Assembly (NCBI GenBank): GCA_032252755.1
Contig: JAVUPY010000041.1
Location: forward strand, 1-64,000
Direction of reading: 5' to 3'
From: Terriglobia bacterium
GTDB taxonomy: Bacteria; Acidobacteriota; Terriglobia; Terriglobales; Acidobacteriaceae
Length of the DNA stretch: 64,000 bases
Shown here one piece after another: positions 6,843 to 8,851 of this stretch. Position numbers and translations under genes: made by a program. Each line of letters starts with the position of its first letter. Within the stretch, counting starts at the first letter, position 1. Under the pieces are notes generated by a model that saw only the letters and a list, made by a program, of their open reading frames with translations, did no database searches and was not told the DNA's origin.

Positions 6843-6973
6843 GTGTTTATCTGTTCTGATAGTGGAACACCGGCGCCTTCTTTGCACAAAACCGCAACCG
6901 CTCACGCACAAGGAGCTCGTTCCAGAATCACGAATTCCCGTAATTGATTTTGCGATTCGACCCAGGTCCGCGG

Positions 6974-7714
6974 CTAGCGCCCGATTTCGCCCAGCGCCTT
7001 ATTCCACGCAACCAGCCGCTCCGTTCCCGGGACCTCGTCGAGTCGTACACGGCTCTTTTCGGACGCAAAGTAATAGGTCCAGATCCCGACGGCAAGTGTG
7101 AATGCTATGGCGTTGAGCATGGTAACCCAGGCATCGACCGAGATTCCAAAGCGAGTGCGCACCGCTTCACCGCTTGTCATCATCGCGGCCATCACGACAA
7201 ATCCGGCAGTTATCCCAAACACGTAATGACGCCACGTCATTCCAAACAGCCGACAGAAGAGAAACAGGAAGAACAATAGACCAACTTCTACGAAACTTGC
7301 CGATCGATCCAGGGTGAGCAGTGCAGAAACTCGGGGAGTATAGCCCTCCGGATGTTGAATTCCCATGAACAGCGCAATCGCGGAAAGGAGCAGCACGCCA
7401 CTAACGTACAATCGGTTCCCCCAACGGCGCAACGCGTGATATGGCTGGAATGTGACAGCGAATATTTCTTGTATCACCGCAAACGTGAAGAAGACATCCA
7501 GCATCTCGCCAAACCACCAATTGTAAAAATAGGCAGCATAGGAGACTTGGTAGGTAACGAAAGAGAGAACCCCCTGAATCAGATGAAAAATCGTGTAGGC
7601 AAAAAAGACAGGGAAAGTTTGGAGCTGTTTTCGGCGCAGGATGAACAATGCCGTTGCCAGCTGAAGCGCAAAACACAACGGTACAATGATGTATTCGGTC
7701 AATGCGATGGTCAT
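6974..7714 (-). CDS. Polytopic membrane protein of unknown function
   Basis: 246 residues from ATG 7714 (MTIALTEYIIVP). Six to seven hydrophobic helices cover nearly the whole chain; aromatic-rich loops occur (YAAYFYNWWFGEM) and the end is polar. The frame extends upstream to 7864, but that part overlaps a separate small gene with a strong ribosome-binding site (7761-7898), so the shorter start is preferred. No enzyme motif was seen. It lies 46 bp downstream of the small secreted peptide gene and, further up, an HTH regulator, all on the minus strand. Such membrane proteins recur near HTH genes in acidobacterial genomes, but this is recollection and unverified. Confidence 0.75.
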   Translation of the reverse strand: MTIALTEYIIVPLCFALQLATALFILRRKQLQTFPVFFAYTIFHLIQGVLSFVTYQVSYAAYFYNWWFGEMLDVFFTFAVIQEIFAVTFQPYHALRRWGNRLYVSGVLLLSAIALFMGIQHPEGYTPRVSALLTLDRSASFVEVGLLFFLFLFCRLFGMTWRHYVFGITAGFVVMAAMMTSGEAVRTRFGISVDAWVTMLNAIAFTLAVGIWTYYFASEKSRVRLDEVPGTERLVAWNKALGEIGR

Positions 7715-7760
7715 GAGCGCCGGGCTCAGGATATTCCTGAAACCCGGCGCCGCACAACCG

Positions 7761-7898
7761 TTAGCTGCACTTTTGGACAGCGGGGTCGCAAGTGGGTGAG
7801 CCGCCGCCCTGCCCATTCGGTGAAACCGTGGTCGTTGAGGTTGCCGTTCCGGTTGCCAGGGCAATTAGAAGCAGGGTGATTGCGAGAACATCTTGCAC
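7761..7898 (-). CDS. 45-residue predicted secreted peptide (new small gene)
   Basis: Start GTG 7898 is preceded by AAGGAG (7905-7910) at 6-nt spacing, one of the best Shine-Dalgarno sites in the region. The stop is TAA at 7761. The chain opens with MQDVLAITLLLIALATGTAT, a compact hydrophobic signal-like helix, followed by a Ser/Thr/Gly-rich tail containing two Cys (SPTCDPAVQKCS at the end). After cleavage, a 22-26 residue peptide with a possible disulfide would be released. It could instead stay anchored as a single-pass microprotein. It sits between an HTH regulator with an S24-like sensor domain and a polytopic membrane protein, all co-directional. Confidence 0.6.
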   Translation of the reverse strand: MQDVLAITLLLIALATGTATSTTTVSPNGQGGGSPTCDPAVQKCS

Positions 7899-8086
7899 GG
7901 TGAACTCCTTCAAGTTGGGTTTGTTTACCGTGCTAAGGTGAATCGGCAGTGTAGGTTATGCTGAAAAATCAAAGTAGCGTTTCATGTTCCGAAAGTGGAA
8001 CAAAATACCTCTTGACGCCTGCCCGGAATGATTCGACCGCGCAAAGCTTGCGTTCCGGGGCATTCGCCGGCCAGTGTCTATTTCTT

Positions 8087-8851
8087 TTAGTTCCCCGAGA
8101 ACTGGTCCAATCTCATCGCTATCCCAACCACCTGTCCCAGTATCTCCGCCTCGGACCCTAACCGAACCGTCCTGTTCTTCACCGGAGACATGGGATGCGA
8201 GCGCAGGGTCAGTATCGATCCCTCCTGATCGCACCAGCAGCAAGTGAACCCATCCCGCATCTCGACGAAGTAGATCGGCCTCTCATATTCGGAGCGCCAT
8301 CCGCCATCCGCCACCTTCGTCCGATTTTCGTCGATTTGCACAAATGCCCCAGGCGAGAGCAGAGGATACATCGTCCAGTCTTTTGCCCCGATGTACCCAT
8401 ACGTGTACTTCCGGTCGAGGAAGTTTTTCAGCAGCGTCATCGGTACCGTCCCCCACTGCTGAATCATCCGTACAATCAGCGTCGTCGACTCCCCCCGGAA
8501 CCCCGGATCCATGATCAATGGCATTTCGGCCTGCGCCTGATGTTCCAGTGCCGGCGCCAGCCCCGAATTTGGCGTATCGAACATCGTCAGGTCCGTGGGT
8601 ATGCGCCCCAGGTCCAGGTCGTACATCTTCAGGACCTCGTGGTAATCGGCGCGATAAATCACGGACAGCGAGTAAACCCGGTAAATGCTCGGGATGATGC
8701 CCTTAGTTTCGATATCGGAAAGGCGGCTGAGGGAAATGAAATAATCCGGATTGTTGTATTTGATCGCGAGCTTTTCGCTGGCACTTTCCACCATGCGGAT
8801 GCTCAATCCCAGCCGTTCCCGCAGCGCGCGAAGCTTCTCGCCGGCCGTCAC
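8087..8851 (-). CDS. XRE-type HTH regulator with degenerate S24-like C-terminal domain
   Basis: 254 residues from GTG 8851, with GGGAGG just upstream. The N-terminal HTH (~4-60) is GEKLRALRERLGLSIRMVES...SLSRLSDIETKG. The C-terminal half (~155-250) matches the layout of the LexA/CI S24 domain: WTMYPLLSPGAFVQID where the family has D-S-M-x-P, and IYFVEMRDGFTCCWC where the family has its catalytic Lys. Here the Ser appears replaced by Thr and the Lys by Cys, so autocleavage is unlikely and a sensor role is inferred. A signal peptide is absent. It lies 188 bp upstream of the small secreted peptide gene on the same strand, with no terminator seen between. Confidence 0.8.
   Translation of the reverse strand: MTAGEKLRALRERLGLSIRMVESASEKLAIKYNNPDYFISLSRLSDIETKGIIPSIYRVYSLSVIYRADYHEVLKMYDLDLGRIPTDLTMFDTPNSGLAPALEHQAQAEMPLIMDPGFRGESTTLIVRMIQQWGTVPMTLLKNFLDRKYTYGYIGAKDWTMYPLLSPGAFVQIDENRTKVADGGWRSEYERPIYFVEMRDGFTCCWCDQEGSILTLRSHPMSPVKNRTVRLGSEAEILGQVVGIAMRLDQFSGN

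Follow-up and report, generated by a model that had tools for sequence, protein, structure and literature searches.

A selected precursor gene beside a seven-helix membrane protein in Acidobacteriota: a candidate peptide-sensing module

Comparison of homologous loci shows that a short precursor gene under selection, whose product has a signal-like N-terminus and a tail rich in Gly and Pro that mostly carries two Cys, is genetically tied to a gene for a seven-transmembrane (7TM) protein. In many loci a LexA-like regulator, an operator and two more genes, here called X and Y, belong to the same set. That the precursor and the 7TM protein belong to a conserved module, with the peptide predicted to be exported, is close to certain from these sequences. 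On balance, we read the locus in the window (the whole stretch of 64,000 nucleotides analysed here, contig C41 of a 5.39 Mb genome in 96 contigs) as a compact version of a peptide-sensing module that belongs to one Acidobacteriota (Terriglobales) family. Within that module the peptide is rather likely to be the ligand of the 7TM protein, and we infer that it may act as a diffusible signal between cells.

The locus in the window and its distribution

Three minus-strand genes stand in a row in the window, a regulator, a 45-codon gene and a membrane gene, in agreement with a first-pass annotation of this DNA. The features of the locus are as follows.

8087 to 8851, minus strand: regulator gene (GTG start at 8851, stop at 8087, 254 aa), encoding a helix-turn-helix (HTH) and a predicted LexA/S24-like domain
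7986 to 8001, minus strand: operator GTTCCACTTTCGGAAC, between the regulator and peptide genes, matching the family motif
7905 to 7910, minus strand: Shine-Dalgarno sequence AAGGAG, with a 6-nt spacer to the GTG of the peptide gene
7761 to 7898, minus strand: peptide precursor gene (GTG at 7898, stop at 7761, 45 codons), with a hydrophobic signal-like start and a Gly/Pro-rich tail
7764 to 7808, minus strand: two-Cys tail GGGSPTCDPAVQKCS, the presumed exported part
7713 to 7755, minus strand: strong RNA hairpin (predicted fold), between the peptide stop and the membrane gene start
6974 to 7714, minus strand: 7TM gene (ATG at 7714, stop at 6974, 246 aa), product predicted N-out/C-in with a rhodopsin/GPCR-like bundle

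The 45-aa precursor of the window reads MQDVLAITLLLIALATGTATSTTTVSPNGQGGGSPTCDPAVQKCS. The ATG of the 7TM gene lies 46 bp past the peptide stop, and the product, earlier described as a membrane protein of 6-7 helices, has seven transmembrane helices plus a C-terminal helix in our model. A reading of this gene from an upstream start at 7864 is not borne out: homologues align from about the ATG at 7714, so that the longer TTG frame is unneeded. The window copy is compact, with a regulator-peptide spacing of 188 bp and the operator kept, and it is without X and Y. Elsewhere in this genome these two genes are found a single time each, next to another regulator on contig C24 (positions 70000-79500), where no peptide or 7TM gene was seen; the neighbours there are a histone-deacetylase-domain gene and a beta-lactamase-superfamily gene (Pfam), and those at another locus, L074, look alike by eye.

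With the window proteins as queries, the membrane protein (E 1e-4 or better) was present in 105 of the 120 genomes sampled from the window's family, and the regulator (E 1e-20 or better) in 93 of 200 sampled genomes. Across the phylum, a membrane protein profile matched 38 of 347 sampled genomes (E 1e-10), 37 of these in the window's family, and a Y profile matched 7 of 347; the module therefore looks like a family-level invention. Relatives of the regulator in named genomes numbered 221, and the best 80 of these 221 come from assemblies titled Acidobacteria, Terriglobia, Terriglobales, Acidobacteriales, Acidobacteriaceae, Sulfotelmatobacter or Korobacter.

We gathered 163 loci, window included, which gave 123 distinct regulator loci after identical regulator sequences were merged. 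X was found in 113 of them, a 7TM gene in 97 and Y in 98, and several of the loci lacking one of these genes stop at contig ends. In the usual order the regulator is followed by X (reverse), operator, peptide, 7TM and Y, with X on the opposite strand and convergent with the regulator, and in homologous loci the peptide start often lies about 455 bp past the regulator stop. Y has one N-terminal transmembrane stretch; in 87 of 94 loci its start falls between -60 and +40 bp relative to the 7TM stop, most often at -4 (a 4-bp overlap). Two other arrangements were seen alongside. A second compact regulator-peptide-7TM set without X (L273, G053:C115) has a regulator about 31% identical to that of the window, and a divergent regulator subfamily (L038, L144-L147) lies beside a long opposite-strand ORF (616 aa in the genome of the window) that the regulator profile matches as well, with no peptide or 7TM gene recognised there.

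Consistent with the earlier statement that no homology to a known system was evident, none of the scanned 7TM, X and Y proteins matched a family above cut-off in Pfam, NCBIfam, PHROGs or PADLOC; among the PADLOC profiles of known defence systems the only match was a weak one of X to ZorA (E 0.06). PDB sequence profiles returned HTH matches for the regulator and no usable match for the rest. A search of the open-access PMC literature, a source whose silence is no proof of absence, listed no item that describes this locus.

Peptide precursors and the seven-helix protein

The first-pass annotation had left as a question whether two-Cys signal-peptide ORFs recur in the space that separates an HTH gene from a member of this membrane family. 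A Shine-Dalgarno-led ORF with a signal-like hydrophobic start lies between the regulator and 7TM genes in 89 of the 97 loci, and such a frame also recurs at 7TM loci without the regulator. Under this strict rule 8 of the 97 regulator-adjacent 7TM genes are without a peptide gene, and three more loci (L123, L125 and L183) have a peptide ORF with a weaker Shine-Dalgarno sequence. A rule fixed at 420 bp recovered a Shine-Dalgarno-led, hydrophobic-start ORF upstream of the 7TM gene in 85 of 97 loci, 82 with a C-x2-7-C tail, compared with 0 of 97 antisense controls, 13 of 1940 dinucleotide shuffles and 2 of 122 control regions. The pairing was scored from the 7TM side only. Differences at codon positions 1, 2 and 3 numbered 29, 25 and 131 in eight close pairs, some of which share a member, and the small frame is therefore under amino-acid selection.

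Adding two peptides at loci lacking a recognised 7TM gene to the 89 gave a set of 91, with precursor lengths of 37 to 145. Their genes start with GTG (69), ATG (21) or TTG (1), and the good ribosome-binding site first noticed in the window is a general feature, AAGGAG preceding 79 of the 91. The description of the window product as a signal peptide plus a two-Cys tail extends to the family as well: exactly two Cys occur in 83 of the 91 tails, none in five and more than two in three, and a few lineages without both Cys still have a D-G-N-P box. A cleavage site of the -3/-1 type stands immediately ahead of a D-G-type box in 73 of 91 peptides, a motif that was used, in place of SignalP, to divide each precursor into signal part and tail; lipobox-like motifs occur in 2 of 91. 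The 88 tails measured have a median length of 16 residues, a mean charge of -0.2 and a GRAVY of -0.58.

Outside the regulator set, 41 further 7TM loci were collected (L039 and L258-L297, two of which, L273 and L285, are nonetheless near a regulator homologue). Judged by eye, 28 of the 41 have a peptide gene and 13 have no recognised one, the ORFs of L259 and L275, which resemble other coding sequence, being left uncounted; some of the peptides (L258, L280 and L296) are without Cys. Several precursors are built of repeats. In the window's own genome, a 242-aa hydrophobic-start ORF on contig C29 (L039:2666-3394), directly ahead of a second 7TM gene, contains six tandem 28-residue two-Cys units around GEGSYPTPACSPSKPGCIPFVVEPKLQA. 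Elsewhere, precursors carry eight DGNPSSK units (L071), eight ADGAGRVPWPV units (L296) or three units each (L133 and L142), and two or three near-identical tandem peptide genes precede the 7TM gene in ten loci of two other genera (L305, L306, L311, L315, L316, L317, L319, L320, L321 and L325). Beside the second 7TM gene of the window's genome lie a response-regulator gene (L039:4561-5016, plus strand; Pfam Response_reg) and a PAS/HisKA/HATPase histidine kinase gene (L039:5033-6181, minus strand), for which a link to the 7TM protein is possible. Peptide-less 7TM genes were also seen beside a CBS-domain gene (L024 by Pfam; L021 and L259 by eye), and 7TM frames of about 300 aa without a recognised upstream peptide gene occur at L259-L261, L267, L268, L270, L271 and L275.

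The model of the window 7TM protein (pLDDT 90.7, pTM 0.85) has residues 163-217 as a single long helix in DSSP, taken here as helices six and seven. The best 50 Foldseek rows obtained with it were rhodopsins, GPCRs or a designed GPCR-like fold (best E 0.023, none reaching 0.001), and the best 50 VIA-align rows were GPCRs or GPCR-like, with Z from 14.4 to 12.2 over about residues 1-220, a likeness that may reflect a common helical-bundle arrangement. This is suggestive of a predicted fold most like that of rhodopsins and GPCRs. At sequence level, the protein matched no GPCR family in Pfam, and a PDB sequence profile search returned one match (E 0.5), which is not a GPCR. Basic residues are concentrated in loops 1, 3 and 5 (mean K+R 3.3, 2.1 and 1.7, compared with 1.0, 0.9 and 1.2 in loops 2, 4 and 6), and the protein is thus predicted to be N-out/C-in; its C-terminal part is slightly acidic. 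Only five alignment columns are invariant (F37, G145, G167, G171 and W212). A role as peptide processor was set aside because no catalytic residue pattern is conserved in the alignment. With the Pfam AgrB profile, 1 of 54 members matched, below cut-off (E 0.008), and an invariant Cys/His pair is absent.

The gap between the peptide and 7TM genes of the window folds into a hairpin of -30.8 kcal/mol (z -4.95), and homologous gaps have a mean z of -2.63, with 53 of 87 below -2; such hairpins could be expected if the peptide is made in excess over the receptor. Co-variation was measured in 78 loci (overall, matched-column and reduced tests) or 84 loci (outer/inner split), the window not included, after exclusion of peptides longer than 62 aa, of loci with no 200-aa 7TM match and, for the 78-locus tests, of those without X or Y. 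With regulator distance held constant (78 loci), tail distance correlated with that of the 7TM protein at 0.33, of the signal part at 0.25, of Y at 0.20 and of X at 0.08, the last value being reached by 47 of 300 permutations. Split into halves (84 loci), the partial correlation of the tail was 0.39 with the outer half of the 7TM protein and 0.17 with the inner half, or -0.03 for the inner half given the outer; the outer-minus-inner difference ranged from 0.14 to 0.30 on bootstrapping and was reversed in 0 of 200. The preference of the tail for the outer half held in 100 of 100 draws of conservation-matched columns (78 loci). Y correlated at 0.28 with the inner and 0.19 with the outer half (78 loci), a difference that is not significant (bootstrap 5-95%, -0.19 to 0.02). 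When the sets are reduced to 26 and 16 loci, the tail/outer-half correlation drops to 0.10 and 0.03; the outer-minus-inner difference is then similar for the signal part and for X, and the contrast between tail and Y persists. Given the weak correlation in these reduced sets, the co-variation is suggestive only, and it is in this measure that it supports a placement of the peptide outside and Y inside.

The regulator and its operator

Pfam gave only weak HTH matches (HTH_31) for the regulator, at its N-terminus. In the predicted model (pTM 0.49; C-domain core at about residues 145-240, pLDDT 77-94), the C-terminal part is LexA-like, with a Foldseek E of 1.3e-6 and a Z of 11.5 to a LexA C-domain. 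The HTH domain aligns with the structures of ComR, PlcR, Rgg2 and PrgX; the TPR peptide-binding domain that follows the HTH in RRNPP/Rgg regulators is absent from the model, where the predicted C-domain is LexA-like.

The C-terminal domain had been described as S24-like with the catalytic Ser and Lys apparently lost. We compared the window regulator with 48 aligned homologues (32-58% identity, 43 of them at 44% or more), the catalytic positions being placed by eye against the E. coli LexA sequence. The Ser position (Thr160 in the window) is Thr in 42 of the 49 aligned members, Ser in 3 and another residue in 4, and the Lys position (Cys205) carries no Lys in any member, with Cys in 36, Ser in 10 and either Ala or Gly in 3. 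Pfam S24 does not match the regulator, but its predicted LexA-like fold and the replacement of both residues in the window agree with the description; in the family Lys is lost throughout and Ser is kept in those three members. With Lys in 0 and Ser in 3 of 49 by this by-eye placement, self-cleavage is not expected. The alignment also contains a C-x-W-C stretch, with both Cys in 48 and Trp in all 49 members.

The operator of the family is a near-palindromic 20-bp motif around GTT(A/C)C(G/A)-N-(A/T)TTC(C/G)GAA(C/A), mostly about 105 bp ahead of the peptide start. A simple GTTCC-N6-GGAA search located it in few loci, and a refined motif was needed; the refined motif exceeds 10 bits in 98 of 103 loci (99th percentile of shuffles, 6.8 bits), having been refined on the same loci that it scores. 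The window site, at 22.6 bits, is the best in the 64 kb, the next scoring 13.8. A weak second operator-like site (6851-6870, 10.4 bits) lies about 100 bp past the 7TM stop, with no adjacent gene start seen. In 78 of 123 loci a site above 10 bits lies no more than 300 bp ahead of the regulator, compared with 8 of 615 shuffles, which suggests that the regulator may be autoregulated. Allowing up to two mismatches, the window's genome has 231 operator-like sites against 92 in the reversed control; examination of 20 of these genome-wide sites gave no clear regulon. One such site in this genome (L238) lies 77 bp before a flagellin gene.

A candidate mechanism, its alternatives and comparison with known systems

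In the mechanism that we propose, the precursor would be exported by Sec and cut by signal peptidase, and what is released would be the tail or, from a repeat precursor, every single unit, usually closed by a disulfide. The tail would then bind the outer half of the 7TM protein, which would relay the signal inward, usually via Y, the only output path proposed. The regulator would bind its near-palindromic operator of the GTT(A/C)C...GGAAC type and set the expression of X, of the peptide operon and often of itself, and the intergenic hairpin would probably lower 7TM expression relative to that of the peptide. In the window, regulator, peptide, 7TM and operator are kept together, with X and Y at the second locus of this genome, beside the second regulator. 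To act as a diffusible signal, the 16-residue peptide would need to cross the outer membrane. The layout had been likened at the outset to peptide-sensing loci, and the recurrence in 89 of 97 loci, the repeat precursors, the GPCR-like predicted fold and the co-variation of the tail all lend support to that likeness, signalling itself being what we infer from them. A ligand and its receptor are favoured over a peptide and its processor by the lack of a conserved catalytic pattern, the predicted fold, the repeat precursors and the tail/outer-half co-variation, the last of which weakens in the reduced sets.

Other readings of the same genes were weighed. The peptide could be a two-Cys bacteriocin that harms competitors, with the 7TM protein protecting the producer. 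Peptide and membrane genes adjoin in most 7TM loci (89 of 97 and 28 of 41), some exported bacteriocins have two Cys a few residues apart, and specific immunity would explain the co-variation of tail and outer half equally well. The tails, however, are short, about neutral and hydrophilic, unlike most membrane-active peptides, and repeat and tandem units are near-identical; no bacteriocin, immunity or defence family matched the 7TM protein, X, Y or the regulator, and the two precursors scanned, both from the window's genome, had no meaningful match in Pfam, so that we regard this reading as unlikely. It is likewise improbable that the peptide remains in the periplasm, bound as a subunit or modulator to the 7TM protein of its own cell, for instance as an envelope or redox sensor acting through the Cys pair. 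The close one-operon pairing with a hairpin would suit such a role, the C-x-W-C stretch of the regulator could be redox- or metal-sensitive, and passage of the peptide through the outer membrane is an assumption of the diffusible-signal reading; yet tandem genes, and precursors with between three and eight units, imply that many copies are set free, and the D-G-N-P box is kept in the few lineages without both Cys.

The small ORF could also be a regulatory leader that controls the 7TM gene by its translation, not by its product, with the hairpin downstream as the means. Its size, its strong Shine-Dalgarno sequence and the hairpin found between peptide and 7TM genes at many loci are what such a leader might show, but the amino-acid selection seen at codon positions (29/25/131), the export features of the precursor, the repeat precursors of 145 and 242 aa and the full tandem copies make it very improbable. 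If the ligand-receptor reading is true, it would mean peptide communication in dominant, little understood soil bacteria, provide a testable ligand-receptor pair with many natural specificity variants, and offer a way to study social behaviour in bacteria that are difficult to culture.

Several known systems share parts of this layout. As in the RRNPP systems of Firmicutes (Rgg-SHP, ComRS and PlcR-PapR), a small precursor adjoins an XRE-type HTH regulator, but here the C-domain of the regulator is predicted to be LexA-like rather than TPR, a 7TM gene follows the peptide gene, and the hosts seen are Acidobacteriota. As in agr (AgrB/AgrD/AgrC/AgrA), a short precursor adjoins a polytopic membrane protein. 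AgrB has a catalytic His and Cys, whereas the 7TM protein is without an invariant Cys/His pair; the precursor moreover has a signal-like start, and the five-gene module includes no kinase gene. With LexA and CI (S24) repressors the regulator shares an HTH, a predicted S24-fold domain and a near-palindromic operator, and it differs from them in lacking the Lys in 49 of 49 members and keeping the Ser in only 3.

A further parallel is with eukaryotic peptide hormones and pheromones that act through GPCRs, such as vasopressin/oxytocin and yeast alpha-factor. The signal-like start, the multi-copy form of some precursors, the two-Cys peptide and the N-out, GPCR-like predicted 7TM protein all resemble these pairs, but no sequence similarity was detected; the likeness is one of architecture only and probably convergent. 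To our knowledge, neither a stand-alone GPCR-shaped 7TM receptor nor repeat precursors are among the known bacterial peptide systems. We can therefore sketch, tentatively and stopping just short of preferring it, a hormone-like system evolved independently of eukaryotes, in which secreted, mostly disulfide-type peptides, some from multi-copy pre-pro-peptides, would act on diverse paralogous 7TM receptors of GPCR-like fold, with Y as membrane-anchored inner partner and a cleavage-dead LexA-like regulator of a wider regulon. Overall, the module is a member of neither RRNPP nor agr and appears to work like a peptide-signalling system, which suggests a so far undescribed bacterial way to send and read peptide signals: sensing an exported peptide is in itself a function already known, and it is the architecture in which it would be carried out here that appears to be new.
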